Shown here piece after piece: positions 22,726 through 50,600 of a stretch of DNA of 64,000 nucleotides. Every line of letters starts with the position of its first letter. The stretch's first letter is position 1. The translations under genes and the position numbers were made by a program. The stretch lies in the NCBI RefSeq assembly GCF_910592395.1, contig NC_088313.1, positions 560,501 to 624,500 on the forward strand. The letters run 5' to 3'. The notes below the pieces were generated by a model. It searched no databases, was not told the DNA's origin, and saw only the letters and a program-made list of their open reading frames with translations. This stretch comes from Lineus longissimus. Taxonomy: Eukaryota; Nemertea; Pilidiophora; Heteronemertea; Lineidae.

Positions 22726-22819
22726 ATGACGCTGATAGTGAATGTGATCAGTGCTTCCAATCTCCCCAATATTGAGAAGTTTGGAAAGAGTGACCCGTTC
22801 TGTGTTGTGGAGTTTTTGA
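22726..22819 (+). CDS. ferlin alternative first exon 1a
   Basis: ATG at 22726 gives 31 codons plus one base, then GTAAG. It encodes MTLIVNVISASNLPN followed by IEKFGKSDPF and CVVEFL, the first two C2A strands and calcium loop 1. The loop keeps an acidic residue (E) and the SDP aspartate. The donor phase (1) joins exon 2 to give an Asn codon. The intron start resembles the one after 1b (ACAACACCCT...CTGACC...GCA), showing that the duplication included flanking intron. Confidence 0.85.
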
Positions 22820-25800
22820 GTAAGTTTTTGTGAGTTTTCGTGTGATGTGGACAACACCCTTTCTCCGACCGGCAGTGCATTTACATAGGGCACTATGTAT
22901 TGAGTAGAACCTCTCTACTAAGGTCACCCGTGGGACTCGCAAGTACTTTCCTTATTTGAGAAGTGGCCTGATTAGAGAGGTCAAATTGAATGGAAACAAC
23001 CAATTTGGGACCACAACTAGTGTCCTTAATAGAGAGGTGTCTGCTAAGGGAGGTTCCACTGTAGGTATTTTCTCTGAAAATAACAAAACTTTCTGGACTA
23101 ACCCGTCCCCCAAAACCAGAAAACCCACTGTTGTACAGTGGAGCCTCCCTTAATGGACACCTCTCTAATAAGGACAACCTCTCTATTAAGGACATTAGTT
23201 TTGGTCCCAAATTGGTTGTTTCCTTTCAGTTTGACCTCTCTAATCAGGACACCTCCCTACTAAGGACAGCATTTGTCAGTCCCGAGGGTGTCCTTAATAG
23301 AAAGGTTGTCCTTATTAGAGAGGTGTCCACTGAGGGAGGCTCCACTGTACTACAGTGGGTTTTCTGGTTTTGGGGGATGGGTTAGTCCAGAAAGTTTTGT
23401 TATTTTCAGAGAAAATGCGTGCCGTGGAACCTCCCTAAGCAGACACCTCTCTATTAAGGACACTAGTTGTGGTCCCAAATTGGCTGTTTCCATTCAATTT
23501 AACCTCTCTAATCAGGACACTTCCCTACTAAGGACAGCATTTGTCAGTCCTGAGGGTGTCCTTAATAGAGAGGTTTCACTGTGTATGCTTATAGACATGT
23601 TGCATTACATGCTGTCACATACTGGTTGGGCAGTTTACACTAAAGTAATGTGGCAGGTGACCCCCAATAGGAGGTGACCCCTAATAGGAGGTGACCCCTT
23701 ATAGGAGGTGACCTCTAATAGCAGGGATATGGTACAATAGACGGTAGCCAATAGACGTCCCAGGTTTAATACAGTTAGGAGGAATTGTTGTCAGTATTTT
23801 CTGTGGCAAAAAATAAAGATTTGGGAATGACTTTTTGACGGGACTGTGGGTGAACGATATCGACCTTTAGAAAGAGGTTGTTTGGACGCTGACCAGTCGT
23901 GCGTTTCACCTGAACGGTCACAGTGGCTAATGACATTCACATCGGCCTTCTGATGTCACGATGGTGTTGCAGTGACTAAATCATGAAATGACCAGTTCTT
24001 GTTTCAAAATATATTTAACTCGGGATAAGTAATGGTGTACATACAACATATCAAATTTGCCGACCTTGCTTATTCAATCTGAAAAAATGAGTGTTAAAGT
24101 TTTTTTCTTTTAATCCTTGTAATGTTCGGGAAGCTCTCCACACATGCACGGAGCGTGGATGGTCGAACATGTTGTTAATTGTCACTTTCAACATTAAATG
24201 TGATAATTTATGTTTATGGGCAAATAATATGACATACCTTCTGTTACTGCAGCATTCCTATATAGGTGCAGTCACAGCTAGCAAAATAATTGTTCACATT
24301 CAGTTAGCGCCCAACTTCTGAAAAGGCTGGATGGATAAAGAATCGCGTTATACTTTGGTAAAAAAACACCAAGATGGCGTTGATAGTGAATGTGATAAGT
24401 GCGTCCAATCTCCCCAATGTGGGAGTTGGTTTATGCAAGAGTCACCCTTTTATGATTATAGACTTTATGGGTAAGTAAATTTTTTTGTGCCACACGACAG
24501 GCAACACCCTGAACTCTGACCACTGGCAAGTGTGTGTTTATATTGAAATATTGTATTCTCACTTTTGAAAATGTCTCCTAGGTCTGACGGGTCAGTCTGG
24601 GGTGTTATTTTCTTCACTGTTAATATATCAATGGGTTTTCTGGATTTGGGGGATGGGTTAGTCCAGAAAGTTTTGTTATTTTCAGAGAAAAAATGCATAG
24701 GACAAAGGCGGGGATCGATAGTGCAGTAAAGGGTCTGACAGGATTTACCTCTCTGCAGTGGAGACAGTAAATTTTTGTCTGTATTTAAGCCTGGATTTTT
24801 ACACCAGAGTTAACTACATGTATAATAGGATGAGAAGTTTCATATTTTTGTTCATGATGGTGGAGTAGTGGCCAGATAAATTGATGCCTTTTGCACGACT
24901 GACTTTAGGTCCTGATCGGTACTAGCATTTCAAACTTGATCGAATAGAATTGTGGTGAGAAAAAATGCTAGCAGCAAATAGCTGTCATGTAATTTGTCAC
25001 TTTCAATAATTCATAGACAATTACCAAAAAAACAGACGTGGCTGTTGCCAGAAAATGGTCCCACTCCGCTGCAGTTACATTAGCTGTATTTCAGTAAAAA
25101 GATCAGCAAAATAATACAGTTTCTCCCTGGCGTCTGCCACGGATGGATGGATTAACAAACTTTGCAACATTCCTGGTGATACAAGCAATTAAAACTCTAT
25201 CAAAATGACGTTGATAGTCAATGTAATCAGTGGCTCCAATTTGCCAAATTTGGAGACGTTTGGGTTTAGCGACCCTTTCTGCATTGTGGATTTTATGAGT
25301 AAGTTCTTGATATGTTTAAGATTTTGAGGCATTAATCCCCTCAAGTAGAGGGGCCCAGGAGGTGTGACAAGGTTCATACGTTTTCTTGAATTCTGGACGA
25401 AAGCATTATTATCCATCTCAAGAACAATGTTTTGTTTCTTATTTTAGATGAGAAGAAAGAAACAAAAGTTATCGATGATGAGCTCAACCCAGTTTGGAAT
25501 GAGGTAAGGATGAGTATTGTTTTATGGGACTTGATTCTCGTAAATTCCCTAGATATTTATAGCCCCGGACCTTTTGGTACCCCAGTGATAATGGTTTAGT
25601 GATATATTCAACTTTAGGCTGATGTCAAAAAGTTCTCCTCTTCTTTGCAAAAAAGTGTAAAATATTACCAAGTACGAATTAATCTATACTTGATATTACG
25701 TATATTACAGGGAAACACAATTTTGTCATTGTCCGTTGAACCTAGAAGTATTCGTATTAGTATGCCTGGATATATTCAAGTGCTTTTGTATAATCTTTCT

Positions 25801-28800
25801 TTTTGATCAATGGATATTTGTCCAATGTGTGTGTCATTGTAACGAAGCCCCACACAGTGTTGCGCTCTACGACGCCCCAAGAATTTAAACTAGCGTCAAG
25901 GAAGCTAGGGGAACTTCCCTGTGCCAGAGATTTCGGCTTTTGGGAAGGACGGAAGTCTAAACAGATAGTAGTCAATCCCTAAACTATTCGTCATCTTGTG
26001 CTATTATTCCAATCATCTGTTCTCTAGTTCCAGAAGTTTGTATAGTCCTCTTAAATTTAGAGTCCAGAGTAGAGTTTTGATATGCTGAATGAACGCCAAA
26101 TAAAATGTTGATGCCATGCAGAAGACTGCCCTAATGTTTGTCTTTCTAGAGGGGGAGGGGGTCCATCAGAGAGATAAGCATGCAGTGTTCATTTGTTAGT
26201 CTGGAATCAATTTCGACATGCTCCCTCAACCATGCTTTGGAATGACAGTTACTTTTACCACGAAAAGTTTGCAGTTCATTGGATGAGTGCACTGTCCTAT
26301 AATCCTGATACAATCTCATTCATTTTTAATTGCCCCTTTGTTTGCAGAATAACAATAAAAAAGTTACAAATTGAAATTAAAATTGCATTGTTTTGTCTCT
26401 ATACTCTGCTTCCTGTGGCCAAACTGTGCATAGTGTTAGTTTCTTACCTATTTTATGTTCCTGATGTTGTTTTGTGTGCAAATAATGACTGCTAGCCACA
26501 CCTGCATGAAAAAAGCTAATGAACTCATAAATTTCCAGTGGGTAATTTTCGACATGTATTTTTGATGAGTTTCCAATTATTTTCTCTCTGAATATCGCAT
26601 AATTAATTTGTTGACATTTATTCCTGCTATATGCCAGTTGATGTTGTTGATGGTACCATTACTCTGAAAGAATTGACAGAACTTCATGGTTAATTTGTTA
26701 AGGAGGCTTTTGCCTATAAAATTGGTTCAAATATGCAAAAATGCTAATACACTGCTGCTTTGTTCCATCTCCATGGCCTTGTGTAAGGCACTTAACCACT
26801 CTCTTGAGGGTGAAAAGCTGCTTCTCATGGCGATGTTGAGTTTCCTCGACAAAACAAAATTTGTTGTCAGTTTTTCGAAATTCCCCAGAACTCGATAAGT
26901 CTTGCTGGGCTGTGTCTACACACATCGCCCATTGCCTTCTCACATGCCAGCTGTCACCATTTTAATTTCCTAAAGAATGAATAGCCTGTGTATCGAGAAC
27001 AACATGCAGTCTTCTATAGCCGAGGCCTTATTTATAAAATATCGCAATATCAAATTAATTGTGTTTTATCGATTTTGAAGTTTTTCTACTGGGTATTGAA
27101 ATTAACAAAGAATTCATAATTCTTATGGTATCAAATCTTGATAAGTTAGAAAAATGTAAGTTGGCGCGATAGAGGGGTCAAAAATCTTCCCTGAAAGTGG
27201 TGACTATCGATGACATTTAGTTCTCTTGTGCGACAGCTGAACTTGTTTCGATTGGCCACAGCTTTACAGTTAATAGTATACATTTGGCTCCTGCCTGTGG
27301 ACTCCCTTTAAGAGCCCAGCATGATTATAGTCAGTCCCATTTCAGAGAACACTTGTAACAACAAATATCATGAATGATTTGATTGTATCGATTTATGACA
27401 TTACACCATTTACCACAATCGGGTGGTGTCTGACATAGCAATATATTTTTACTCAATACAATGCAACTGGGTTTTAGTGTCGTTTGTTGGCTTTCAATAA
27501 TACGGTTCATAAATGCAAGCTCAAGTAGTTGCATGCAACAAGTGCAGTTGTAGTAGCTCTGGAGATGTTTCCAAGTGTTAGCAATTTTAACCCGCGTTCA
27601 TGTCATCTCCTAAGTTCTTGGAAGTTGGTTGTGAGATCAGTTGGTGCATACCGAGTTCTTCCACAGCTATGACAGCATAGGAGGAGACATACCCACCCCA
27701 TACCCCACTATCAACACCAACTCATACCCACTATCAACACCAACTCATACCCCATACCCCACTATCAACACCAACTCATACCCCATACCCCACTATCAAC
27801 ACCAACTCATACCCCACTATCAACACCAACTCATACCCCATACCCCACTATCAACACCAACTCATACCCCATACCCCACTATCAACACCAACTCATACCC
27901 CACTATCAACACCAACTCATACCCCATACCCCACTATCAACACCAACTCATACCCCGCTATCAACACCAACTCATACCCCACTATCAACACCAACTCAGT
28001 GAAAATATAATTTGAAACACTACTCTTTCAGGTGTCGTCATTTTTAAGAGGGTGTTAGTCTCAAGCAGGTCGCTTTAATGGCGGCTAGTGTATGATTTCT
28101 AACATGTGCATTGTTTGTCCCCTGATGCAGATATGACATGGTCTCACTGCTGTTCGTAGTCGTATAAAGTGCAAAACAAGACTTTCTCATAGTCATACAG
28201 GCGTACATGTTACAGTCATACATACTATGATTATATAACATATGTGTCAGACCCTTATTGGACTCTTATGTATGTATAGACACCCAAATGTGTTGGAATG
28301 CACTGAGGTAATGACAGCTAAATGCCATTCAACTTTGCCTATAATTATATGTAACTATTTCTAGGCCTAAGTCATATAAGTAAGGATGAAGTAATAAGCA
28401 CTTGATTGAGTGATCATACTGGCATTGATCATATGCTTGAGTATTTTTGTGGACAAATGGGAATTGTTGTAAACATGCCGGGTCTTATCATGAATGAATG
28501 AAAAGACATGTCTTTATCATTTGTCTTATTAACAAAGGTTCTTTGTGTAAGCTTGTATAGTCGCTTGGCGCTTGAAATGATATTGTATGACATATAAGTC
28601 CACATACTTCCCATTTTTAAGACCGGATACCTGGGTATTGAAACTATGAATCTTTCTCAAAATATCATTGAATTTTAAATGATAAGTAGAGATTATTTGC
28701 TAAGCTGTTACCTCGAGATATGTACATGATCTTCTATGCATACAGGAATGCGGAGATGGGTAAACACTTGAGTCTCAGTACAACCCACTCGGTGTCTCTC

Positions 28801-31800
28801 ATCTCTGTGGGCACAGTCCTCCAAGTTCAATGGCGATGTCATATGCAAACTGCTGCATTGCTTTCAATCTGGTTCAATTATGCTGCATAAAATTAATCAA
28901 GAATCAAAGAAATATCTCATATTTGCAGAATGTATGAAATGTACATGCACTTACCACATAGTATCCTGATGATGTTGATTTTATGGATTTTCAGAAATGG
29001 AATTAGGAATTTTTCTGATTGAAATGTCAAAAAATAAAGCTTAACTTTTTTTGTGGGTTTTTTTCAAATTTGGTTAGTATTTTGGTGTGTTTTGTTATAC
29101 ATATGTACATGTACATGTGTGTCATTTTGAGGAGAAGGATTGAGCATTACAACTTGAGTAAGTTTTAAAGGTAAGGTGGTCCAGAAAATTGATCGACCTG
29201 CGGTCATCAAACCCATCGATTAGTTGTTTACCTATAGACGAGAGATGTTTTCTGTCACACACAATTGATATCATAGGTTGCATATATTTAAGCTTGTGGG
29301 TCCTTATTTTCCTTCAACTGCATTTTGAGCGTGCTTTCATACGATTAGAGATGTGGTGAAAATGCCACATTTCTCCCTCCTCCCTGCGTGATATTGTATT
29401 GAGATGGTTTACTCTGTCTTTCAGAAACTGGAATTCGATTTGAAGACTAAACCATTATCGCCGAGAGATAAATTAGTTGTCCATGTTAAAGACAAGGAGA
29501 CTCTCGGACCAAACAAGTAAGTTGGAATTTCGACGGCTGATTGTAATTTTTCACTATCTTTTGTTCCAGAAACTTGAGTTTGATTTAAAGGGTAAAGCCC
29601 TCTCTGGTCGGGATAAGTTGGCCCTTTCGGTCAAGGATAAGGAGACTATCGGGAAGAATAGGTATGAGGTTCAGAGTGTTTGCAGTGCCTAACAAAATAA
29701 CCGCTGAGTGCTTGAATGATTGTGGCCTACAGCATATGACAACTTACTTGAAAACTATAGTTAGGGGCCTGCCATTGTTGAGTAGTATCTCTGCACCTTG
29801 GCATGAAAGAAGATGGACAATCAGTGAAAATATGGCTGATTTGTTGTTTTTAGTCTCAACTTGTATTGGAATTAGCAACAACAGACATGCCTGGGCTCAC
29901 AGAATGAAAAGTTTTTGAGCTTTTGAAAAACCGTTTAGGGTGTTTTAGCCAACACAATGTGCACCACGTGGAGGTTTTTCAGAGAAGTGAACAACACCTA
30001 AGGTAAAAAGGTTTTTCATTTACTGAAAAATGTACATTGTTGGTCGAAAAATCTTTTTCAAAACTCAAAAACCTATTACTTACCCAGAGTGCATCTTTTG
30101 GCTGAATTTTGGTGTTACAACTTGCATTGAAAAGGAAGAGTGTTCTATGGAAAACAATATTGTTTTCTAAGAGAAAATTTTCACTTGGAGAAGTTGTCAT
30201 CTGCATAATATCCTAACTGTAAAAATTCCCATTGGCTACAACTCTCACACCCTACTATACTTAGCATAGCGTTGAGCTTGCCTAACACGCCTCACCCTCT
30301 GTAACATTTGCACTGCTACTAAAGATACTTGCCTTCATTGCAGCTGCCTTCATGAAAGCATCTTTTTTGCTCAGTTTTGACTAAATTGCCTTGCGGGATA
30401 TGCAACTTCCTTTAATCAAGCTCAGTGTACAGATGGGAAATCTTGAGATCATCAAGAAACATATCTTGAAGATTTAATGGGATTAAAGTGCAATAAAAAC
30501 ATTAGTATTTATATCGCCGTGCAGCCTAAAGAGAATATGTCTTCAGGTCGGGAAGATCTCTTTAATTTCTTTTAAAATTCTTACTTCTCTCAACTGTCAT
30601 CTTCTGGGGAAAATTTGTAAAGTTTTCAAATTCTTCTTTTTATTATTGTCCACTGATATTCTTATTCAAGTTCTTTAATTCAAGTTGATTTTCTTGCTAA
30701 GAAATAAGACCCAGGGCAATTTATCATAGTGGCAATTTCTAAATTCTCAAACAACATGGGGAATGAAGGCTTATGTATATACTGTAGAAAGCATCTGAAT
30801 GAAGTCTGGCTTGTAAACCTCAGTGTAAATAGTCAACACAGTCTAATTGAACCCTAACAATGCACAGCCTGTGTAGATAGCATGAATGAACTAACAATTT
30901 CTTTTGCAGGGTATTATAACCTCTTTAAACTCGTCACGTCTGTGGATGTACTTTGGACTGCTACTACCCCATCAACCCTCCCCAACCCCATACCTATACA
31001 TAACCCTTGTGTCCCTTAACCTAGTAACAATTTCAGATGAGCCATCGTCAAGTGTTTTGGGTGACTAAATCTCCAGTAGACTGAAAATGAGTCTCAGTTT
31101 AGGTGCCTGTCAGTTAAAGTACAAAATGTAGTTGTTATGATCCCTGCATGACTGTGAAGTGTTCATGGCCCCCTCCAAAACATCTTGACATCGTTTCAGC
31201 CACTCTGCTTTAAATTTTGCCCCAAATTCTGCATCAATTCATGTATAGAAAGGTCAAAGGTTGCTGATCAGTATTAATAAATAAAAGAGTTTTTGATCAA
31301 TTTCATACACTATGCAATTAGTGTGCAATTGCTTCCTGCTCAGTTTATAGACTTGAAAGGTCACATTGTATTTGAAATGCTTTGTATTTACAGCGAATTT
31401 CATAATCATCTCTGACATAGAATAAAATGACATTTTGATGACAAATACATGGCCATAATGAATAGCTCTATAGTGTGTTACCTTTCCCACTTAGTCTTCC
31501 AATATCTGATGACTAGCTGTCTCATGCACCTGTTACAGCCTTTCAATAAATCCAATAGGCCTAAGGTGAATTTCAGGTGAGTTGGAAAACAACTCGAAAT
31601 CGTGTGGATGGAGTTTGCCCGACGTCCTGAAATTGCATTTTCATCAGCTTCATGATAAACTGTGTGTGATACTGCTATATGAAGATATATCGTCTCGTCA
31701 GTTTGCATTCAGAATGCTTTTGGCGTGTTTGCTGGGTTTTTCAAGTGAGGCTGTCAAAGCTCTATTCAATAGTTTCGTGCAGTTTACCAACTTGTTGTGA

Positions 31801-34800
31801 GAGAGCTGAGTGGTACAGGTTGTCGAAGAAAGCAAATAGAATGTCTGGTGGAGTAGCAATATGGGCAGAATGTGTGAAGTGGAAGTGGTGTTGGGGGTCA
31901 ATGTCTGTTTAACAGTAGAAAAAGATAAGGATATGAAAATACTGGAAGGAAAATACTTGTTGGAGCTGATGTTTTACCCATAAACAAGTAATCTTTTTAT
32001 TGCTCATCGCATCAATAAGCGTTGTAGATTGCAGCGACAAAAAGCACTGGTTTGCGTGGTGCTTAGGGAACTGGTCCATCCTAACCACACAGCCCTTGTC
32101 TTCGTCCTCACAGTCACCATCATGCCGCGCTTACATTACTTGCATCTGCTGCTCTCAACCAATCAACAAGCTTTATGATATCCGATCGTGCCCATAATTT
32201 CAGTCCAATAACACGCCGGTCATTAAACATTTAATGCTCAATATATTATGATGGCGGTCGTCAAATGTGGTGCTTTTATAATTGGCATCAATGTGGCTCA
32301 TTTTAACGAAGTTAGGATCTGGTTACACCAGCATATCGATTCAGAATATGCAAACATTTGTAATGATGGCACTAGCAGGATAGTTTGATCTATTGTTGGC
32401 ATAGCATGTAACCCTATAGTCGGTATTGCATGAAAAGGTAATGCTGTACAGCAGTGCATTCATTCAGTTGAATCTGATATCATGTTGGCAAAAAAGGCTG
32501 GTAATCCTATAGTATAATGAGATAGTACATGCCACCAGCTTGTCCTACACCCAATATGGCAAACCAACCGTCAACCGAACTCTTGCTAGATATTAGTTGA
32601 TAGATACTTGTATGGCTTTGAGTATAGCTCTTGACTCACTTTCCGCCGATGTTGACCCATTTTGTGCACATTCTCCCAGGGTTTTTGGTCCCATGGTGTG
32701 TTAATGGTTTCCCTTCAAGTTCCACTGTGGAGTGATATGGCTTCCTGTCAGATTTTGGGCAGTGATCCTACTTTGGCAGTTACCAGTTTAACTTAAAAGT
32801 CTTCATGATTAACCCCGTTCTCTCCAACTACTAACTTCAAATTCAACAAACATGTGATACTTTCAAGTCTCCTTGAATCGTTGAGCCTTTCTGTCTTATT
32901 CTAATTGGGGCGGACAATTCTGATGAAAAATAGTAAAATATATCTTGTATATTCCAGCCTCAGATCTAAATATTAGGTCAGGTAAGTTTGAATTGTGCCG
33001 CAAACATGGAAAACTGCGGTAACAGTCCAGCCTCAATGTCTGATAGTTTTGCAAGTTGGTAATATCGGTCAGAGGGATCCCTCTCTGTGTTCAGTTGTAG
33101 CGCAACAGAGAGCCATTATCATTAAAAAAAACACGTCATGAATATTCCAGTCTCTGATGTATATGATTGGCATTAATCATCAACAATAATGTCAATTATG
33201 TTTGGGTTTGTCAAGTAATTGGCATGGTTTGATCATATCATCTATTTTCAGCTTATTTTCCCAGTGCCTAGGAAAGACTTGACATGTATTTGGCATATTG
33301 TGAATGTTATTCCAGAGGAGTTCATATTGGCTCGTGCAGCTCCATGAATTAAACTGTTTTGCCCCATATTGCGATATTGTGTCTATAAGTATTGATGGTG
33401 GCCTTATTAAGTGTTTTGTGGTTGGTCCGTCTCGATGCAACAACAATCGGTTTCTGCATCATCCCTCAAGGTGACAAAACTGCTTACACAGATTGACTAA
33501 CTGGAGCTTGACCTCGGTAAGGCACAACCAGGCTAGTGTTTGAACCAATGATCTTTTGGTTACTAAAGTGCCTTGAATCTTAGTTGTCTGATTGACTTTC
33601 GGAGCAAGGACTCTCTTGTAGTCGACCAGGGTGGACATGGTCTCAGTTGGGCTGTGTAGTTTGAACCTTAGGACGATTGGATTGCGCACATCCGAACCAA
33701 TTAATACAACTGCTGTACACACTTCATACTGCACCATGTACAAATACATGTGCATAACATGTTATGGTATTGCTGAGACTGAGTTCACCATGGTAATAAA
33801 CATGCTTGCTGTGGTTATGGTTATGGCTATGGCAATTGTTCGACTCCCTGTGGGAAAACCATGTCATTTTCAAACTAATTGAAATATTGTCATAAGTTCC
33901 TGCATGCATATTATTGTGTACTACTACTCTGTTCTACTTAGTGACTGGAAAGAGGTCTATGTTTATTCGAAAAGGGTTGTACAGATGTCTATCCCCGATT
34001 GGCCGGGGTACTGTACTTTCAGAACAGCCTCCAGTCCTCTTGGAAGCTTATGCCGAAGTTACATAGACCTCATTCGTTCATTTCCCACGAGTCACTTTCC
34101 AGGTTTTTCTTTCATTCCTCGGTGAATGCACGCCACAAGCCCGTGCATTCACCGAGGAATGAAAGCAAAAGGGGGAAAATGAATCATGGGAAATGAACGA
34201 ATGAGGTCTATGTAACTTCGGCCTTATGGGTAACCTTGGGACATAAACTCGGTTAGTGGCGAGTGATGGCCCTGAAGTCCTACTATGATTGAATCAACCA
34301 ACCTTTCATTTGAAAAACTCTGATCATAAATTGATGAATTTTGTCCAAGTTCGACATTTTTGATTGATGATGGTGTCCATGAGTGAATATTTGATTGTTT
34401 GGTCCACTTCGTCCGCTCTTCCTTTGAGACTTCATAACGTTTCAACTGTCTGTATAAATAATGTTCATCGGTGCTTCAAATTGATATCAAATTGCTATAA
34501 GTACATAATATCTTTGGAAAGATATTTCACATTTCAGGATTTTTTTCCCCCTTACGAGGTTTGTTATAGAAGGTAATGTCCCAAATGAACGTTTTGTCTT
34601 TATTAAAAAATGGCCAGGGCCATTGTGCTCACCTCATGTGGAGGAAAGATTGATAAAGAGCATGGTCTTGTGTCATGTAGTGTTAGGTTTGATGTAGGTC
34701 CAAGCAATTACAATTTCCCCAAAATGGCCAATTTACAGTACATTCGACCTCTGTGACCTTGAAAAGTAGGTCAAATCAAAGAAGACCCGGGTGACACATT

Positions 34801-35643: not shown

Positions 35644-35675
<32 letters not shown>

Positions 35676-38600
35676 ACGACGGACGCCACGGTATGGGATA
35701 AGCTCACCTCTGCTAAGAGGTGAGCTAAAAAGTAACAATTATTTACACTGCCAGGTTGGAAACTCTTACATGCTGTAGTTGCACAGCACAGCAACTCGAG
35801 GCGGATTCTTTGCCTAAAGCTGCAAGACACCCTCAAGCACGCACCCAAAATCAAGTTGCCATGCCATCATGATTAAATTTAGTTTTTATTTTGTGATTAA
35901 TTTTAGGTCGTCTTGCATGTTTGATTTGATGGAACTGAGCGGACTGTTTATAATGTGCTTGTTGTTGGAAAAATGTCATCCGGAAATAAATCCAATATCA
36001 ATGCATTGTCCATAATTCATTAAATGGATCCGGAAGATCCACCTAACACAGGTTGGTGACATTACGAAATTTATGAGATTCAGTAAATTCAGATTTAACA
36101 GATGTCTGTTATCATGAATAGTTGTCAAATTGAATCATACAACTTGTAATAAGGTTTTAGTATTGCATGTTTGCTCTTGTTGTTCATGTGAAATACTCAA
36201 TACGCTATAGTCATAAGGCTATTAGTCTATGTTGAATGTCATGTTGATCAGTGATACTTAAAGGATTATTCTCTATGAAATATACAACTTTTGCTAAATA
36301 AACTGGAACCAAATTCAAATATGGTTTCACTGAGTATTGATTAGAGACATGGTGTGTTTTATTCTTAACAGAATGATTAATGTAATGGCCATGTTTGGTT
36401 GCGAATATTTGTTCTATGGTGACTTAACAGATGTTGGGGGGGGGGGGGTGGGGAGGTCTCTGATGACCATTAGGATTCTGGTAATTGTGCAGTCTTAGTT
36501 TGTCTTTGTTTTTGGAGGCACAACATCGGAATTTATACACTAGCTGGGATGTTGACTGTGTCAAGTGGCTGTTTGTTCAGTTGACCTTTCCTAACCCATT
36601 TGTGTGAGACCTTTGGGAAGGTACTTCACTACAATTGCCAAACATAGTTCTCTGAATGACTTGACAGGACGAGACAAGTTGGTAATTATTGTAACCTTGA
36701 ATGATCTGCGAGGTCCATGAACAGCATGACACTGATGAACGTTGGATATGGTAGAGTGATCGCCATCTGAAAGCCAGTGAATGATTGTTGGCTTCTACTC
36801 AATGGTGATCATGTTGGCCTGGTCAATTTGTATAATTGACTTGTTTTGACCGACACTAAGATTCACTCAGTCGGCCCTACCCACCCCTGTACCACCTTAT
36901 TCATGCATTGAGACAATCCTGCTTGTTCAAAGCCATTCTGGAGTGTCTTTGGCATGATATGTCATGACCTAGACCTTTGGCTGGTCAGCTATTTGGATGA
37001 CTTCACACATTGTTTAAACCGGTCGGCCCATTCTTACATGACCTCGTCTCTGAAGACCTGTGTTGTGGTTCGCCTAATTTCTATGGGTGCCCTTGCAAGC
37101 CATAAAATGTCTTGGTTTAAGCTGATCAGACATTATTATGTTATTCGAAATTGAATGACAAATTGCTAGAACAAAGATCAGTTCTGACTTTAGATGAGAT
37201 CTGGATTCTCTTGTGGGGCTGATAGTTCATCTGAATTGTAGGTAAAAGCAAGCATGAATATTCGTGCAGATCAAGTGCCGATATAGGTACTCAAGGAGAA
37301 TGCATCACCCCAGTCATGGTGTAGGTAGACTGAAATATCTGATCAATGCTTGGAGTAATGGATCTTAACACTTTCTTGTCTGTGACACGTACTGGCAGGA
37401 GCGTATGACTGGTCATACACTGCTGGTACCAGCAACAATCCAGTGGCAAATGCAGGTACACTTGCTGATGCTGATCAGCCACAGAGCGGTGTTCTAGTAG
37501 AAGGGTAAGAAGTGTATGAGCCAGTGCATAGCTGCCAACATTAGTCGGGCAGCATGCATCAAAGAACTCTCTCCTTACCAAACGTGTGGAGTAACTGGGT
37601 TCTGGTCGCACATCACAAACAACAGAGGATATCCGTGCGAATTTGTGGAGGTCAATTTGTGAGACCGGCTGTTCAGACCTCGCCTCTCAGTTGAGGGAGT
37701 TTTAGCAGAATAACCCACAACAAGACATGCCAGTTCCTCCTTGTTCTTGGGACACAATAGAAGTCACCTCATTTTTAGCCAGACACATCTAATGTTAGGA
37801 CACTCCCTTAGCAGGAAACATTTCAATTCACAGTAACACTCCCTGCATTCAAATTGCCTGATTTCCCAGTTTTCTGTCATGAACTTTTGCTCTGCTCCAT
37901 TTCTCATTCTGCCAACACAAACTTGCTTTACACCACGAGGTCCTGAATGTGTTATAGGAGCGTGACGATATCGAACCTTCATAAAACACCCATAATTCTC
38001 ATTATAAAAGAGTAATGAGTTTTTTTACCAATATGTTGTCATGGTGTCAAGAAACTGTCTAGAGCCATTTTAGCCCAGTGACCAGTAAAGACGGGAAGAC
38101 TTCTGTCGTCTTTTTGTACCCTTGACAACACCATCTTGGCTGGTTCTAACCCACACAGATCGCTCTCTTTCAAAAGAAAATACTTGCATGATGAGACTTT
38201 GTGTTTGTCTTCACTGAATTACAAATGATTCTATTAAACATTTAACCGACTCCTTCTAAGAAGCGATTTGCCACACTATGTTGAGTTGTCAGACTACCTA
38301 CTAGACCAGAGATAATGGTAGATTTAGTTACATGAAGAAGATAAGTTTTGCATAATATTACTTAGGGGAATATCAGTGGTGTATGGCAAAGACAAAGTGA
38401 GTTATTTTGAAGTTTTCTTGTCTATTAGACTGTTAGTCCAGTCAATGAGGAAATAAATTCCCGGAGTGAATGTCTTCGTGTTTTACTGTTGTCAGCGTAA
38501 ACCCGTCCCTTTGGTTACCGTTGGATTATTCCATTGGTTTACTCTGGTCGATGAAGCCTTGTTTTAACCCTTTCACTGCCGGTAGCTTCTAATTTTTAGC

Positions 38601-41600
38601 TACCTCACCTGCCGGTAGGTTTCTTTGTTTTAACATGATTTTGAGTATGGATATTTCTCCACCCTGTAGAGAGAAAGCCTCTGGAGATAGAGCAAAACAA
38701 TGTATATAAAAGTTGTTCAGTATTGCCTACTCTTCAAAATGGGACCATAATTTGCCCTAATTTGCATACCGCCATCTTGAATTTATAATGAGGACGACAA
38801 TTTTTTTGAAAAAACTATGTAATTTGGAAAACACAATATACACACTCTCATTATCGCTAATTTGTTCATCATTTACATCAAAGTCAGGATCTAAATCATC
38901 ATCATCGACGAACTCCTCACCAGAGTCCGAATCGTTCACTATATCCAGCTCATCAAGGACCTCAGACACAGTCAGTTTCTTGGTCATTTTGGCTTCAAAT
39001 TACTCGATAAACTTCCAAACATCGAAATATAAAACCATCCGCCATGTTTTGCTGAACCATCTATACTACCGCGCCATCTATCAAACTTTACGCTAACCAT
39101 GCTCAATAACGAAATTTCAATGGTATTATAGTGTATGGATAATTGTCGCAGAAGTGCGCCTCCGGCAGTAAAGGGAATAATATTGATTGTCGCAGAAGTG
39201 CGCCTCCGGCAGTGAAAGGGTTAAGGACCTGAATTCCTGAGATTCAAGTCTATTTTTAGAGTGACGTGGAACACTTAGGCATTTACGTCAATAAGAGCCT
39301 ATAAATATAAAAATTGGAAAATTGCAATAAAAATTGCAATAAAAATTGCAAAGCATGCTAAATTTCCAATTTTGTTAATTTATTGGAAAATTGTTCTCAT
39401 TTAGATTTTAAAGAATTGTAAGTGGAACATCATTATATTCAGGCTATTTCATCAAGTATGGGACGATGTATTGGTGCTAAATGAATGAAAATCTAATGAG
39501 ATCGAGATAATGACAAGAGCGCTGGAATTCAGACACCACTTTGAATAAGTGGGTCTATTGACTAGAACCTGAAGTATCATTGAACAGTTGATTCGGGACT
39601 GGTGATATTAGGTCATCATGTTATCAACCCAGGACAGCCATTTTAAGTGGAATCAATGGGCGATTAACGTGTCTGTCGTATGTGGTTATTGATGAGATGT
39701 CAAACTATCTAGGTTGATATCTGTTTATATTGAACCTGAAATCAAAAACATTCCTAACCAATTCCTTTATAATTATCTTTCAGGGGAAAGTCTTAAAAGA
39801 CGGTTACCTGGAATGTTTTTGAACAACGCTTTATTTTGTGTATGTCATTCATGAAATTGTTGTCAACCTCATGATATTCACCATATCTATAGTTCAGCAA
39901 CTACAGTATATTTTCGTAACATTACAGCTCTGGTGCAGTGCTAAAGCCAAGGTTAGTTTGGAAAGAAAATAAGGAATGCTCAAAAAATCACATGTCATGT
40001 ATTAGGTGACACACACTGCTCCTTTTCAGATGCATGTATTTGACAATGTTTGTGGTTGTTAAGGCTCCTTGACAACTCCAGTTATTGTCAAGGCAACCCC
40101 GCTTGTTGTCAAGGCAACCCCGCTTGTTGTCAAGGCAACTAATTTTGTTGTCAAGGCAACTCTCTGGTTGTCAATGGAGACGGAGGAGAAAACTGGTTAG
40201 AGGATGATTCCCGGGGAATAGGCGGAGCATGATTGGGTTGATCACTGAAATAAATTCCTCTTCAGATGCATGACGTATGAGATGGTTGTCAAAGTGACTG
40301 GTCTGGACTGCGGCCATAAGAGAAACTATTTTGTTTGGAAAATGTATGTTAAAATCTAAAAAGTCTTAACAGGGAAGGAGAAGAGATTGCGAAATGATTC
40401 CACTTTGATATCAGAAATGTATTTGCAATACTGAAACCACCCTTGCTAATTCTGTGATACATTTCTGCCAAAAATGTTTCTCTTCATGGTACAAGGTGTC
40501 TGTCAGTCGTGTTGAACTTGTATGCAACAACAGGGTTATTTTCCACATTCCTTTTCAGTTGCATGATGTTGAATTGGGTCATCAAATGTTTGCGTTTGGC
40601 CATTAATGACAGTCTGGTCTGTCATCAATGGATTCTAAATGCTGGTTTGTTGCATGTATTTGGTGGATTTGCCATTAAGTCAGCGGCTCCACCTTAATCA
40701 GGTTTATCATATCAGAAGTAGGTTACTTTGCTTATCCGACTTATCAGTCAAATTGTCATTCAGCTCAAGAGTCCTGCTCAAGTGCGCCCTCCTATTGATA
40801 CTTAGTAACTTTTAAAACTTTTTTTGAAAAGTTCTCTTTTATCTGTCTCCTGATGGATAATTATTAAAGTAATGCGCGTAAAGACCACGGAGGAGACAGT
40901 TATCAACGGAAACTGCTCTACGTCAATTGTGATATGAATAAACAGTTCAAATGCATGGCCACTGATTGTTTAATGAACAGATATAATCTCCTCTGATATT
41001 AAAATTTGAATCTTTGTTCAAGGAAAGGCAAGTTTCCATGACAGATACATTGTGCGATATTGGAGAAAGTGCGTCATAACCGTCGACAGCTGTGGGATCG
41101 ATATATTTTCATTGGTCCAGCTGTCACTTCGGTCAACATTGATCACTGTCCTGTATTCAGTCGTGCGTTACAGTACATAACATACTGGCGCTATAGGCCT
41201 ACTTCAAGCAGTCAATTCTGCCCCAAGCATGAGGTTACTTCCATCCTAAGTTTCAGGAGGTTACTTTCATCCTGCATGTATGTGTGCAGTTACTATATCA
41301 TAAAGATATTACCACTTCTTGTGCATAAGCTGTAGTGTTAAAACCTTGTTGGTCAAGATGTTGTTACTTTTGTATAGGTTGGCAACAGAGTATCAGGTCT
41401 AATTATGTTGACATCAATCAAAAAAATTGTGATCGAAAAATGTTGGTAAGAACCTTTCGGTGGTTCAGCTGGCTAGCTATTCACATCACTACTTCAAAGA
41501 ATCCCTTGGTAGTTTAAGAGGTAGTCATAGACAGCCATATAAAGTGGCATTCTACTGGACAACTGGGAGTCTGGAAGGGAAAATGGGAATAAGATGCGAT

Positions 41601-44600
41601 ATAGATGACTAATGTTTCATACGGTTGGCTTTGATGAAGAGGTATTGTCTGACCATCATGATACACTATCAGACTGACTAATGATTCTAGGTTTGGTGGC
41701 TGGAGACGGAAAGATGGGGATGTAGGGCTATAAACTATAAAGAGCTTGTTGGGGCACTATGGTAAACCAGGGGATACCAGGCAGCTGACCCCAGCAGCTA
41801 GCCGCCCAAAACATCACAAACACTTGGTAATGAGGGGAGACTCTTGAACTGTCTCCCCGAATGCTTGGACCAGTTAGTTGGGCAAGGGCTTTGCAAAAAA
41901 CACTCTGAAGGCCCTGTCTTTGATTCATGCATGTACCAGGTGCAGAGATCCATATGAGATATAGTTTAACCATGCCATCAATAAAGACATAACCTTTTAA
42001 CGACTTGAACTTTTTTAAATTTTAAACTGATAAACTTTTTGAACCATGCATCGATTTTCTGTTTGAAGTGAAGGAGTTTGTCCTAAAATGCTGAGCTCGA
42101 GTGTTATATCGAGATAGTGGGTGTCTCTAAAATAATTAAGGCAGGGAGAAGTTAATTTTCTTTAACTTCTCCCTGCCTTTAAAAAAAATTGGGGTAAGAA
42201 GAAAAAAAAATTAAAAAAGTCTCCTGCACCCACTGGCCATTCCTGGGTTTGAACCCTGGGGCTCCTGGCTCTGACTCCCTGTCTCTACCACTAGACCACA
42301 GGGACCTCACACTGGCATAGTGACTTTCTTTCACTATGAATGAACTATTGTTTTGATCTAAACTTGGATCAGCTGTTCAGAACAATAGTCATCACGAGAA
42401 AGCAATGAATGGCTTGCTAACCTGAACTAACCTAAGCATTTGGTATGGCAATCTGGGTTGCTTCCTGAAATCAGTTTCGGAGATTGCAATAATCTCTGCT
42501 CTTTCGTGTATAATTCTATCTCACCCATCAATCATGGTCAATTTGGCTATCAGATTGTAAGAAGTAGTGTCTATATTGCAAGCCAGATGATGCTGACAGT
42601 TTGTTGGGTGTGTCTGTAGTTGGTGCTGATGAGATGTTGGGTCCTCGTCATGCTCATAAAATAATTAAGACAGGGAGAAGTTAATTAACTTTAACTTCTC
42701 CGTGCCTAAATAAAAATTGGGGGTAAAAAGAAAAAAATGAAAAAAAGTTTCCTGCACACACTTCCTGGGTTTGAACCCTGGGTCTCCCAGCTCTAAATCC
42801 CTGACTCTACCACTAGACCACAGGGACCTCACACTTAGCTGAGGGCTTTCTTTGAGTATTAATGAAAAGCTATTGTTCTGGTCTGGACTTGGATTAGCTG
42901 TTGAGAACAAGAGTGATTACGAGAAAGTAATGAATGGCTTGCCAACCAAGCATTTTGTTATGTATGCCAATCTTAGTTGCTTTATGGCAATCTTAGTTGC
43001 TTTATGACAATCTTAGTTGCTTTATGGAAATCTCAGTTGCTTTATGGCAATCGTAGTTGCCTCCCAAAATTTGTTTTGAGGATTGGAGTAATCTTTGCTG
43101 CTTCATATGTTATATTGCTATCAGATCGTTAGAAGTACTTCTACATAGAGAACCAGACGACTAAACTCAGGAAATTTGGTGATGTGCGTTTGGATCTTCA
43201 ACTGAATATACCCATAACCCCCAGTGGACAACTGCAAGCGAGCATTTCTCTGAAGACAGTGGACAACTGCAAGCAGGCATTTCTCTGAAGACACTTTATG
43301 GTACACTTGGAGGAAAAGCATCCAGGGACTGTGCAATCTGAAATCAGTATAGAGTAGCACCTCTCTATGAAGGATGCCCTTGGGACATAAATTCTGTCCT
43401 TAAGGTGCCCTGATAATGGAGGTGGATCATATACCCTATTCATCATATCTGTTGGATGCCATCTAAACTTGATAAAACATCCCCAGTTCGTGTCGTGCAC
43501 AAAATCTGTGCCACATCCACAATCTGGATCGATATCACGCTCATGGATGTTTTATGCAACGATGTGATGAGCCTTGTATTCCTGCTAAATGAGGAACTTG
43601 TGTATCACAGAAACCCATAAATGTGCAGTATATTAGGAGCGTCAGGTTGCAGTGTGAAGAGGCGAAGTTTGATGGAAAAGTTAACACTTTTTTGACAAAA
43701 ACAATTTTGGGGAACTCGTCAGAGGTAAATTTCTTCCATTGCCAGAAGCCTGGTCCCTAAATAAGATTGAGAGAACCCAATGCCATCTAAATCTCTAAGG
43801 ACTGACAAATTTTTGGGGGGCTGATGATATTTCTTCATTTTGACCAGAAAAAGAAACAAGTGAAAAAAATATTTGGACTCAGAAATTTTTTCACCCTCCA
43901 GAGTTGAATTTTTTCAGAAGTTCAGAAATCTGAAACATTTTCGAAGCCAAACATTTTTTGGGAATGATAATGTTTTTTCATCGGTAGCATGACAAATTTG
44001 CAAGATCGTAGACTTCATCGCGGAGGGTTTTGTTTTTGTCGAGATTTATCTTGTTGCAACTCAGTGGCTTTTTGGACCCAATGGCTCCAGATACGAAATG
44101 GAGATTGCAACCAATTTGTCGGTTTTTGTAACTCAATTTGTCTGTTTTTGTAACTCATCTCAAGACTCTTGCCACTTGTTGCCACTTGTCTTTATCATTA
44201 AGACCGCAGCGTTTTTTCATCCCATTTATCTTCTTTTGGCTTGGTGGGTTTAGACCTTGATGGACAAATGCAGTTAATAGATGACATCCGTCTCCTTAGA
44301 TTAAGGAAATTTATTGATGGAACTTCCAATAATTGCCTCTTCCCATGATGACGGCCGTAGTGATCTTCTGTGCTTAGGCAGTTCTAGAAGAACTTGTTAA
44401 AATGCTAGGCTATTGCCCAAGTCATGAACAGCTTATCAGGCCGAAACTTATGATGGATTCTGTTGCAAATGGTAATGGAAGTTATTTTTCACCACAACTG
44501 TATACAATTCAACATCACTTTTCCTTTATAACATTATGAGAATAGATTGCACTTGCACCACTATATCAAATTAATATAACTCTTGGAGCATATTTGCACA

Positions 44601-47600
44601 AGATCTCAAATAATACACTATGCTAACAAGAAAATTGATCATGTTTATTGTACATGTTGAATCAGCAGATCCTTTGAGACTTTCCTTTGAGCGGTTGTTG
44701 TACTTTAGAGGCCAAGTCTAACTAACTCTACTTTCTAGCTTGACGCAAAGGTCTTCCGAGTCCATCCTTTTGCACCATGAGACTTTCAGAAAATGTGTTA
44801 AGTGGCCTGCTGTCATATGTCTTTTGTAAATGCCCAGTATTAGTTTGATGACTAACCTTACTGGATGCTAGTGGACACTGTTAAAGATGACTCGAATGAA
44901 TAAACTTGGATTAAGATGAGCAATGGACTTGTGATATTGTCATGTTCACAGAGTGGAATCAGCTTCAACCTCTCTGAGCATTCCTGCCTCTCTGTGTGAT
45001 GGCCAACCACCTCTCTGAGCATTCCTGCCTCTCTGTGTAATGGCCAACCACCTCTCTGAGCATTCCTGCCTCTCTGTGTAACGGCCAACCACCTCTCTGA
45101 GCATTCCTGCCTCTCCGTGTAACGGCCAACCACCTCTCTGAGCATTCCTGCCTCTCTGTGTAACGGCCAACCACCTCTCTGAGCATTCCTGCCTCTCTGT
45201 GTGATGGCCAACCACCTCTCTGAGCAAAGTAAACATACCAAGGACTTGTTTAGAGGTGGTCTTCAGTTTGTGGCTGGATAGTGGCCAGAGAGGTGGTTGG
45301 CCATGACTTGGAGGGCTTGTGGCTGATTCTACAGGGTGATGTTGATGCTTGGCAATGATACAGCACCCACCAATAACACAATTGATATTTACCTTTGTAC
45401 ATGTGTCAAAATAATACACTGATTTAATAATAGAAACATTGATTCTCTTTATGAAATCCTAAGTATCATGATTTAATGAAAAGTGTAATTTATTCAACCA
45501 CCTGTCTGCGATGTAGAGTGTAGTTACATTCTGTGCATTATGCATGGGCTTATTTGCACTATAACATATGTCTAGGCCTATAACAATATTGTGATTTTCC
45601 AATGTGGTGTTACTTTTCTCAGAGTCACAAGTATGGCACACACTAGCGCCTTAATTGTGAGAGACAGAACATTGTCTTTGCTGAAATGCTGCATCGGTCC
45701 AAACTTGCCAAAAGGCCGACGAAAAAACTAATACGTGCTTGTGACAAGTGACTCATTAACAACAACAAGTGAATTCTCTATAATCCCAGCCTTACGTTGT
45801 TCACTGCTTGAATATTTCAAGCAGGCCTGTGGGGCCTGTTGTGATGCAATTTAGATACATGTTTTCCTTGTTGTCTTCTAACACGTGTTATCCACCATGC
45901 AGCTGTTTTCAAACTTGTTGGTTTTACCAGATGGTAGGCCTATTATTATCCTGCTGGGCATCATAACCATGTTACCCAACAAACGTATGTCATATGAGAG
46001 TAGAATTGATTTGAGGTTATGTTCAGAGTCCGTAATATCATTGTGTTAGGGAGGGGGATGCATTGTAGATTTCAATCCCCTTGCCAATGTTCTGATACGC
46101 TTTTGATTCATTGGGTCTACGTGACTTGTCAACTATTTTCTCATCTCGCTGAAGATGCTTGCAATTCCACTCTAGTAATTATTTGAAACCATTTGTTTCT
46201 CCAATATCATTCTTGATTAATCGATCCCTTATTCAAATGGCCTCCACTGAAACAATCCAATTTATAGCTTGCAAGGATATCCCAGTCTCTGGGGATGCAG
46301 CTTGTCTGCAGTGAGTACATGTAGCACATCAAAGAGATGATATGCATGTTACTGTGGATGTTTGGGGAATATTCTGAGGATGTTTTCAGCAGAGATGCAA
46401 TGCTAGCCTTCTTTTATACCTTGTCGCTGACTGAACAGTCTGTGTCTGTTGCTGGGGATCGTTCTTGATAAAGAGTCTCCTTACTGTGATGCTTGCAACT
46501 GGCACAGTCAAATTATAGCAGCTTTAAATGATTTGCTGAGCTGGAGCGTAATACAGAACAGTTACAAACACCACAATTAGTCATATCTTCAATGAAAACA
46601 AGACAATTATAATCAAATCACCAAACACCCGCTGAACAATCGAGACTCAATCATTCAAGTCAACATAAGGCCTAACGAGCAAGACATTGTTTGTCCCATT
46701 CATCGGTAACCATGGTTACGGTGCACATCTGCACACGCAATAAGTGTGGATCAAAGCAGCTGAATGAATACATTGTGCGGCAGCGTGATAAGCCACATAG
46801 GCCTTGGACAGTTATGGTTGGATTGCGGGGTCTCAACTGGGTTGTCAATTACATTAGTCATTGATTGATTGTGGTTTGTGGAGCCATATGGACCATGGCG
46901 ACACTGGCGTGCTCAATTGATATTTCCATCACAAAATGTGTCAATTAATAATGAGCCTGAAAGGTACCTTTAAAAACCTTTTGATGGTACTTGACCTCAT
47001 TTCAAAGTGTCAAATATGTGTTGACAATCTGTCCCCAATGTATCAAAAATCAATATGACATTGTTGTTCACCATGATTCAAGCTTTATAGTGGAACATTT
47101 CACCCCAGTTTGGGTAGAGGACATGAAATCGCTTAGCAACCAATGTCGCTTCTAGCAATTTCTGGTAGATGTTACAGTGATCATCCATCAAACCCGACTT
47201 GACATCAGCAACTATCTCGATTTCATCGCAAACATGCCGGCTGCCTGGGTGTATCATCTGCAAAATGACATTGTCTGATTTCGCCAGCAGCAAAGTGGTG
47301 AATTTAAATCCATTTAGAATGTCCGCACAGAATATTCCATGTTAAGTCGGCCTTGTTTATTTATTCTCTCAGACGTAATCTTTCAATGGTCGTTTTATTC
47401 ATGAAGTGGCCAGGTCAACCAGCCGTTGCCCTGTAACATTGATTTTCCATAACGAGAATGTCACATTTTATTGAAACTTTCATTCTGAGTTCTACAGTGT
47501 GTTCAACAACAAAAAAGTCAAGTATGGTGTTTTTTGCTCACCTTATGAAGTATTTTAAGTTTAATTATCATTGTCACTATCATTTTCTATAATAAACGTA

Positions 47601-50600
47601 ATTTTGCACTTTTCTCACAGTTTTTCTCATATCATTCCAGATTACTCGGTACAGCCAATGTCCCTCTCAAAGATCTACTCAAGGGCAGTAATACCATGCA
47701 GGTTAATGTCAACCTCATGGATGCCAGCGACAAGCCTAACACGGTACGTATTTCATCAACAAGTCTAGAATGACAACACTTGGTCAAAAGACCGAGACTC
47801 GCACAGACTTTGACCAAAGCAAAAACATACAAGGCAAGCTGGCGTAAATATTTTTGCTGAAAATTTGTGTGTGACAGTTTGACGCATTTTGGACACTGAT
47901 GAAATCTTCACCAAAATATGTGAAAACTTTGCACATTACCATGGCAATGTGGAGCAGACAATGGTGGCAATATGATGTAATCAGCATGATCATAGCTCAG
48001 TGGACACACAGAAGGTGACTAACAGAACAGCCATGAAAAGGCACATTTGAGTTGGAAGCTGGAGTCATATTATTGATGGGGATACTCGATGCAGGAATGA
48101 TGATGCTGAGTTGATCCATGGTCACATAACCACTCTGATCAATTAGTAACTAAGTGGCCATGACAGTCTCACTAAATGCAGGAATGATGCCCAGTGCGTT
48201 GACCTCTGATATCAAAACTGGTCACTATCCCCTCCACTGAATCAGTAACAGTGGCCGTGTTCCCCAGGCAAGGATTCAGGCAAACTGAAAACTCCTTTGA
48301 AAACTCCCTTTGCAGTCCTGTCTGTTGAGACATCCACCTGAATATCAGGCAAACTGAAAACTCTGCAGCCATCTCACTTTAGATGTATGATCTATGTAAG
48401 TGGTGATGACAGCTTATAGGGATTACTTGCCATGAAGTATCTTTGGCTCATCTCTTTCTCTCTGACCTGATCCAACCTGCAGCCACTCCTAATGCTGTTT
48501 GGCAGCATGGAAATAGTCACCAAGGGACTCAAGATTTATGAATCCTAATCAAATTGTGGATTTATAGGTGCATTCACAATTGTGATGGGAGTCGCAGTGG
48601 TGAAAGTATCATTGCATTGTTACATCATGATAGATTGTGCTGTAGCTATTCTTACGAGGATGATATTCCCGGTGGCCATGAAGTCAATTTTGATAGCGCA
48701 TGCAAATCGTGGAAATTTCAGATTTCTGAAGAAACTTTTTTTTTTTTTTTAATTATCATTTTGACTTAGTGTGATTTCTTTCAGTTTTTCAATCAAAAAG
48801 TTTTGTTTGGAAATTTTCATTTGATTCGAACATTTGGTGATTACAGTATAAAAAACTTGAGCCTATTTTGTCTGTCATGGCGCTACGTACAGTCTTGCTC
48901 GGCAGCCCAACCGATGATCAGTAACATATTCTCAAACCAAGGCAGGCTGAAGCTTAGTTGTGTAAAGATCTCATCAATTATGTGGCTGATTATTCCCTTT
49001 TGGTTTGCTCAGTTGTTTTCAGAGATGCTGAAGAAATGTACTGTAAACTTTATGGATTGCGCCGTCCAATACTGCGATTCAGTCAGTCCTGATGGGAATA
49101 TGAAGTAACAGGGATTGGAAGCTGCTGAAGAGAAAGATATTCTATGGATCGATGGGCTGGCGGATGAGTTCCTTTGGACTCACTGTCTACCTCCAGAACA
49201 AATTACTTGCACAGTAGTTCTTTCAAGTAGACAGTTGCAAAAACGACTGGTATTTTGTCCGTTTTTGTTTGAGATACTGAAAAACTTTAGACTTTAGGGA
49301 TTGAGCTGCCCAACTAATCAATTGTCAGTTCCATTGGGAGATCAGGACATCACTTACACAGTGGTTCTTTGACTTTGATTGTTGAAACAGAACCAGTGTT
49401 TTCTACATTTTTGGCTGCCTGATGATACAAAAAACATGATGGTACTTAAAACCAGACTGCCGATTGTCTTAGGAACGACTTGGTCACTTTTCTGTTGAAT
49501 GGCAACTGCCTTACAGACATGATGAGACTGCTTGAATTTGTATAACCAAGTCTTCACTCTGGGAACTTCTTGAACTGTTTAGTTTTTCATCAAAACATAT
49601 AGTGATTACATTAGCAATTGTCGAGGGAGGATGTGGAGGAATATCGCAGCCGTACTGTTTGTTGGCAGACGATATTGTCTGTCTGGGTTGTTCGAAACCG
49701 TATTCAGTTTAACAGAGTCGTTAGGATGAGCAGTTCCTACAGATTCAGATCCTACAAAATGGATCCTCTAAAACGGTATTGCAACCCCGAAGGTCTCAGG
49801 GTATAAAAAAGTCTCTCCTTGTGTCAGATATAAGCAACATGTCCTCATCTCACCTTGGCTGTATCCATAAACATTCCGAGAGGATGGGTGAAATAAATTT
49901 CCCGTTTCCCCCAACACTGTGAACTTGTGATGACCTGATATAATACCAATGGTCTATGGTTATTAGGGCAACTAGGGAAGTCATCAGAATGTGTCCAATT
50001 TCGATGTTGATAACATAATAAATGGTGGGGATCGTACAAAATTGGCTGCGTACAGAATTGTATCCATTCAGTCAGCGCCAGCCAGCCCTTCGAAGTGTGC
50101 TCCATCTTGACTCATGGCAGGTCTTGCTTCGTGCCTGAATTTTCAGGTTCCCATTCCTTCTCCTGTTTCCCTTCCATCTGCTCTTAACTCAATGTCAAAA
50201 TGGTTTGCCAAATATTGTTTATAAAGCCAATATCAGCAGACAATTCCACTTCAGAAACACCTAGGCAAGATACAGAAATAAAGTGGTCCTCCTGGACTAA
50301 TACTGCTCTAGTTGCATGCCATCAGTAATCCTAAATTCTAAATGAGTGTCCACAAGTACAGGAATGAGTTTATTAGCAATAGCCACTCACTGAAAAAGTG
50401 CAAGCGACTTTCATTTGGAGTTGTAGCATTTCAGTTGATTGAGAATAGGATTGGTGTGGCATTTATCATCTGTTAACATATTCATCGAGTTAAGTTATTG
50501 TTGATTGTTAATTAGGGTCTAACACTGTCCTCAGGAGGTCGAAAACAATACACATACTCAAGTTACGAGTTTGTTCCCTCTGATATTTTTCCAGTAGCTA

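Follow-up and report, generated by a model that had tools for sequence, protein, structure and literature searches.

In human dysferlin, the closest system described so far, a swap of the first C2 domain (C2A) reportedly separates calcium-dependent and calcium-independent binding, as the title of Fuson's 2014 study has it. An alternate exon 1, noted in PMC2923515, exchanges strands 1 and 2 and loop 1 and gives the versions C2A and C2Av1 (4IHB, 4IQH); C2Av1 is a solved structure, whose sequence was matched in the PDB, and its calcium pocket is described in PMC9333456. A second precedent is the calcium-sensitivity switch of OGDH, in which, according to PMC7969005, exons 4a and 4b form an exclusive pair, the intron between them having branch points that lie less than ~50 nt from its donor. 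Here, we analyzed a stretch of 64,000 nt of chromosome 6 (C6) of the nemertean Lineus longissimus, hereafter the window, which we read as the 5′ part of one ferlin gene. The C2A of this ferlin probably combines two exchangeable cassettes, a set of alternative first exons and an exclusive pair of third exons (3A/3B), with a frame that stays constant. Isoform diversity is known in ferlins, and the locus is a real variant of it, elaborate to an unusual degree, that could yield six C2A versions.

Tandem C2A exons and their coding constraint

The sequence itself shows the exon anatomy, frame logic, and coding constraint. The C2A exons are duplicated in tandem, with three copies of exon 1 (1A, 1B, and 1C), two copies of exon 3 (3A and 3B), and single exons 2 and 4 (Table 1). 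All six joins of an exon 1 with an exon 3 are open, in frame, and free of stops. Searches of the window by tblastn with the exon peptides recovered the copies from one another (1A/1C, E 3e-14; 1A/1B, E 4e-8; 3A/3B, E 2e-10). The next matches of the seven exon peptides, at E values of 0.017 to 0.03, included the reverse strand of exon 1C itself, and no further exon copies were counted in the window. The initial annotation had assigned loop 1 to exon 1 and loop 3 to exon 3, which the exon anatomy and the ligand alignment bore out; its view of exons 2 and 4 as a constant scaffold and its count of six possible C2A versions from one gene agree with the single copies and the open joins. It covered 22726..47743, starting at the first ATG and closing with exon 4, and its four-exon layout stands for those exons, but a fifth exon supplies the last C2A strand. 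That annotation lacked this exon, the start codons of the three exon-1 copies, and a third tandem pair, which lies beyond the window. Exon 5 also contains a second in-phase donor at 53886-53894 (GAG/GTGAGG after 61 nt), the use of which would shorten the linker by 9 residues.

Exons 2 and 3 of human DYSF are likewise 56 and 92 nt long. Because the phases of introns 1 and 4 of the worm C2A equal those of the human DYSF junctions (exon 2 begins at c.89 and exon 4 finishes at c.342, as given in PMC13170716), the C2A exon frame looks ancient.

The copies were compared pairwise, over ~30 codons, with 3,000 neutral runs per pair that ignored mutation bias. Between exons 3A and 3B, 34 of 90 nt are different, and the residue changes in 8 of 30 whole codons (neutral mean, 19.9; 0 of 3,000 runs so low), with a ninth residue change in the split codon. 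The 1A/1C pair differs at 21 nt and 7 residues (1 of 3,000 runs so low), the 1B/1C pair differs at 30 nt and 11 residues (0 of 3,000), and the 1A/1B pair, with the extra codon of 1B excluded, differs at 25 nt and 12 residues (P 0.018), which is the weakest support among the C2A pairs. Silent change per site exceeds amino acid change in all copy pairs, indicating that the copies are kept as coding sequence, least clearly so for 1A/1B. Chance open frames or pseudo-exons were rejected for 3A/3B, 1A/1C, and 1B/1C and less firmly for 1B against 1A. The duplication of exon 3 is probably older than that of exon 1, because silent sites are saturated in 3A/3B, whereas the exon-1 copies have diverged from one another by 0.6 to 1.3 changes per silent site.

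Table 1. Coordinates of the window, the C2A exons, and the tandem C2C exons (window positions unless stated otherwise; extended positions lie beyond the window)
Feature	Position	Strand	Size and phase	Encoded sequence and remarks
Window	C6:560501-624500			
Exon 1A, coding part	22726-22819	+	94 nt; donor GTAAGT, phase 1	MTLIVNVISASNLPNIEKFGKSDPFCVVEFL; ATG, first strand, loop 1, second strand
Exon 1B, coding part	24374-24470	+	97 nt; donor GTAAGT, phase 1	MALIVNVISASNLPNVGVGLCKSHPFMIIDFM; one added loop-1 codon
Exon 1C, coding part	25205-25298	+	94 nt; donor GTAAGT, phase 1	MTLIVNVISGSNLPNLETFGFSDPFCIVDFM; loop-1 E and D retained
Exon 2, constant	25448-25503	+	56 nt; phase 1 to 0	Split codon N/D, then EKKETKVIDDELNPVWNE; third strand, loop 2
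Exon 3A	29425-29516	+	92 nt; phase 0 to 2	KLEFDLKTKPLSPRDKLVVHVKDKETLGPN(K); carries loop 3
Intron 3A-3B	29517-29569	+	53 nt	Branch-like A at nt 24 or 37
Exon 3B	29570-29661	+	92 nt; phase 0 to 2	KLEFDLKGKALSGRDKLALSVKDKETIGKN(R)
Exon 4, constant	47641-47743	+	103 nt; phase 2 to 0	Split codon K/R, then LLGTANVPLKDLLKGSNTMQVNVNLMDASDKPNT
Exon 5	53828-53915	+	88 nt; phase 0 to 1	GTVNLQITYNAP...; last C2A strand and start of C2A-C2B linker
Next exon after exon 5	63185-63327	+		Acidic and basic linker ending STKPQDFQ, before C2B
C2C pair, copy a	C6, extended 71114-71193 (L009 7114-7193)		80 nt; phase 2 to 1	DRITGDDALGTYVLKVSEISSFAEDI
C2C pair, copy b	C6, extended 72092-72168 (L009 8092-8168)		77 nt; phase 2 to 1	DRLTEDDPIGTTTIALSQVSAQGDG

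Selection among the tandem exons

Exons 3A and 3B are adjacent homologues of identical length and phase. Inclusion of both leads to a stop after 6 residues, and skipping of both leads to a stop after 16 residues. The short intron between them places any usable branch point less than 50 nt from the donor, and PMC7969005 and PMC5740500 give a donor-to-branch-point distance below ~50 nt as the steric threshold. With a barrier in the intron and another in the reading frame, the pair is built for mutually exclusive splicing, and transcripts would be expected to carry one exon or the other.

Each exon-1 copy has a start codon and a donor of the same phase to the common exon 2. Because each copy has its own ATG, the three most likely serve as alternative first exons in the manner of human dysferlin C2A/C2Av1, and the selection of exon 1 is most likely a matter of promoter choice rather than of splice-site competition. 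In-frame stops 14 codons (1A) and 5 codons (1B and 1C) upstream of the ATG led us to reject the copies as coding internal exons of a longer N terminus. Their 5′ flank is common to all three, including GGATGGAT located 45 to 64 nt before the ATG. The shared flank (22676-22686, 24329-24336, and 25141-25155) also contains a two-codon upstream frame, ATGGATTAA, before 1A and 1C; before 1B, the TAA of this frame is AAA, and the frame would overrun the main ATG in another phase. This upstream frame possibly reflects translational control or chance.

A third tandem pair lies beyond the window, after the C2C stretch IKDW, and encodes what we take, by its D-rich pattern, to be calcium loop 3 of C2C. 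A stop follows when copies a and b are both included or both skipped. Over their first 21 codons, the copies differ at 30 nt and 12 residues (P 0.01; the remaining codons, unequal in number, were excluded). Splice sites were scored with a simple consensus of generic weights; the acceptor of copy a is strong and its donor is poor (GTTGGT; 85th percentile), and copy b has an acceptor at the 83rd and a donor at the 97th percentile. This pair could raise the number of isoforms up to 12. Human dysferlin varies nearby, as skipping of exon 17 shortens a C2C subdomain (PMC9333456). Two plus-strand censuses of the gene, a self-comparison of open frames of at least 20 residues in pairs up to 30 kb apart and a comparison of 33 exon pieces (3A and 3B separate; E up to 0.05), revealed no tandem exon copies other than those of exon 1, exon 3, and the C2C loop-3 exon. 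Residual matches were between different C2 or DysF stretches, were intron repeats, or were weak.

Proposed working and competing explanations

From this arrangement, we infer promoter use, splicing outcome, and calcium and lipid effects as follows. The cell type would pick the promoter, and splicing factors would pick 3A or 3B (and C2C a or b), the two choices being independent unless linked by cell type. Cassette 1 would consist of the three first exons, each with an ATG and probably its own promoter and all joinable to exon 2, and would set calcium loop 1 along with the first and second strands. Cassette 2, either 3A or 3B, would be kept exclusive by the reading frame and by an intron of 53 nt, too short to be spliced, and would set calcium loop 3 together with strands 4 and 5 and the loop at the opposite end. 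At most six C2A forms would result, and 12 if the C2C loop-3 pair is counted in. In forms with 1A or 1C, the acidic pocket would be kept in part, by E and D of loop 1 and D and E of loop 3, and these forms might respond weakly to calcium. By analogy with dysferlin C2Av1, the 1B forms, in which the loop-1 acids are gone, may bind membranes or partners without calcium. The choice of 3A or 3B would tune the charge of loop 3 and the side face of the domain.

Ligand positions were derived from an alignment with synaptotagmin-1, myoferlin, and dysferlin C2A, in which loop limits were set by hand; the aligned positions that bind calcium, including those of the five calcium-ligand aspartates of synaptotagmin, are our assumption. 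In 1A and 1C, E and D occupy the two loop-1 aspartate positions; 1B has G and H there and carries an additional loop-1 residue. The earlier proposal that alternative exons sit exactly where binding chemistry is set thus holds for 1B, with both loop-1 acids replaced, and is loose for the remainder. Several observations weigh against the two-cassette reading. The central acids of loop 3, D and E, are the same in 3A and 3B, and its last position is K or R. Varying columns make up 7 of 12 in loop 1 versus 7 of 18 elsewhere in exon 1 (Fisher P 0.25) and 3 of 9 in loop 3 versus 6 of 22 elsewhere in exon 3 (Fisher P 0.53), so that 6 of the 9 exon-3 changes fall outside loop 3. On this distribution, a change of exon 1 would exchange loop 1 together with strand 2, and a change of exon 3 would affect strand 5 and the loop at the opposite end no less than loop 3. 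Even 1A and 1C fall short of the five synaptotagmin aspartates, with E, D, D, E, and K/R in their place, which makes calcium binding by any worm C2A form uncertain. Exon 1B is the least constrained exon, with a dN/dS of 0.47 for 1A/1B and of 4.0 in the six strand-2 codons, where amino acid change exceeds silent change. Donors of 1A and 1C are moderate (94th percentile). Finally, an open frame together with the ATG and donor is kept in 13% of neutral runs, and an open frame alone is kept in 56% (1A) and 30% (3A), so openness by itself says little.

The absence of significant loop enrichment would suit an explanation in which the exon-1 copies serve expression control alone, with one promoter per tissue and loop differences that are tolerated drift with little effect on binding. 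We regard this as somewhat unlikely, since the replacement at both loop-1 acidic positions of 1B is drastic and the corresponding exon swap in human dysferlin reportedly separates calcium-dependent from calcium-independent binding. Nonetheless, a promoter-based scheme has a parallel in Drosophila misfire, another ferlin gene, which has testis and ovary promoters (PMC1853072). Weak constraint between 1A and 1B, an inserted codon, and the loss of both loop-1 acids could instead mean that only part of the set works and that 1B is a decaying duplicate, perhaps along with C2C copy a, whose donor is poor; this would leave 2 × 2 or fewer C2A forms. Such decay appears unlikely. Exon 1B retains its ATG, its frame, and the best donor among the exon-1 copies (99th percentile), and it is constrained relative to 1C and conserved in the first strand relative to 1A (dN/dS 0.10), and among the seven acceptors scored, that of C2C copy a is the strongest.

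A further alternative concerns how exon 1 is selected, with the three copies spliced mutually exclusively from one shared upstream noncoding leader under a single promoter. About 2.1 kb of sequence with no assigned feature precedes exon 1A, and an AG with a partial pyrimidine tract occurs before each ATG. However, even the best acceptor-like AGs reach only the 65th (1A, position -19), 89th (1B, -108), and 85th (1C, -110) percentiles of AGs in the locus, compared with the 98.6th to 99.4th percentiles for the acceptors of exons 2, 3A, 3B, and 4. They also lie at nonmatching places despite the homologous flanks, and exon 1C has no AG between the in-frame stop and the ATG. The score is not decisive against a shared leader, as the acceptor of the proposed C2C copy b ranks at the 83rd percentile and that of the following exon ranks at the 94th. 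On balance, we consider a shared leader unlikely and retain the reading of exon 1 as a set of alternative first exons.

The ferlin gene and related systems

A human myoferlin sequence was used as a tblastn probe on window positions 20001 to 64000 and six 10-kb downstream pieces. The plus-strand matches were collinear with the probe, beginning with residue 24 at window 25429 and reaching residue 2049 at extended 114127 (C6:674627), and this order was broken only by a few cross-matches among C2 or DysF repeats; residues 668 to 766, among others, had no tblastn match in the worm locus. A separate search of both strands at E 0.01 placed ferlin matches exclusively on the plus strand in the window and the downstream pieces (L009 to L014). 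Collinearity on one strand points to a single ferlin gene, which measures at least 91 kb to the anchor exon, a lower bound because the last coding exon was not placed. Exon 1 was located with its own peptides.

Among 10 worm exons submitted to Pfam, 5 scored above the cutoff (C2 in two exons, FerI, FerB, and Ferlin_C), 1 scored below it, and 4 had no match. The myoferlin and Pfam matches together revealed tandem C2 domains, FerI, FerB, and a C-terminal membrane anchor. At the N terminus, C2A begins at the initiator Met and is nearest to known ferlin C2A domains, as the best matches in a PDB sequence search were myoferlin (E 6e-38) and dysferlin (E 1e-31), both as whole chains. The DysF stretch of the probe gave worm tblastn matches of E 8e-19 to 4e-9; of the three exons from this stretch, Pfam reported Pex24p below the cutoff in one and nothing in two. 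The gene is therefore a putative type I (DysF-type) ferlin. Synaptotagmin or rabphilin identity was rejected, as ferlins score far higher and the remaining ferlin body lies downstream. The upstream neighbor on the same strand is EIF3A (about 7918-20592), which ends ~2.1 kb before exon 1A; it was called from matches to solved eIF3a sequences and from a C-terminal frame that presumably resembles the human EIF3A C terminus.

Tandem last exons were observed in two other ferlin genes of the worm. One gene (L025) has four, at C10:5112043, 5113127, 5115533, and 5117086, each encoding SRP/RP..., a membrane anchor, and a stop; to judge from their position, they would belong to the ferlin body at C10:5.107 Mb. 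Vertebrate otoferlin has two alternative anchor exons, of which the C10 array is reminiscent. In the other, an otoferlin-like gene (L023 and L024; C4, about 25.0568-25.0573 Mb, minus strand), the last exon is present as two tandem copies, which encode near-identical membrane anchors ending in GA-stop. Tentatively, and with more doubt than conviction, these genes may form a combinatorial ferlin toolkit with the C6 ferlin, which has three calcium-loop sites (C2A loop 1, C2A loop 3, and C2C loop 3; up to 12 forms), and the other two would contribute two and four interchangeable anchor-coding last exons. The membrane-contacting parts of three ferlins would thus be duplicated as exons and chosen by cell type.

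If expressed, the C2A forms would constitute a natural mutant series that shares one frame and differs at loop 1 and in the surroundings of loop 3. Such a series would bear on calcium and membrane sensing by ferlin C2A, still an open question, and it may be of interest for nemertean wound repair and regeneration.

Arthropod Dscam genes carry tandem homologous exons that are used alternatively at several sites per gene and yield thousands of forms. The worm gene shares the alternative tandem homologous exons at several sites, but the likeness to Dscam drawn in the initial annotation is overstated for a system of 6 (at most 12) forms in a protein of unrelated type and role. Its arrays have three, two, and two copies, and the plus-strand self-comparisons added none. 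In the open-licence literature, the top matches, taken by title and start of abstract, included no ferlin with an exon-3 pair or three first exons. Drosophila misfire is likewise a ferlin gene with tissue-specific promoters and splice isoforms, but its isoforms vary in length and domain number, and the portion of PMC1853072 at hand describes no tandem C2 loop exons. OGDH and human dysferlin are nearer precedents. The OGDH pair resembles 3A/3B in its exclusive use, short donor-to-branch-point distance, and link to calcium, but the protein is unrelated and has a single pair. Dysferlin has the same exon 1/2 phase as the worm gene, but two exon-1 versions instead of three. The worm exon-1 copies share 59 to 78% identity with one another and 20 to 47% with the three human sequences compared; because they are closer to each other, worm and human copies look to have been duplicated separately. 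A separate worm duplication at the C2A loop-1 position of dysferlin would suggest that this is a recurrent tuning place for ferlins.

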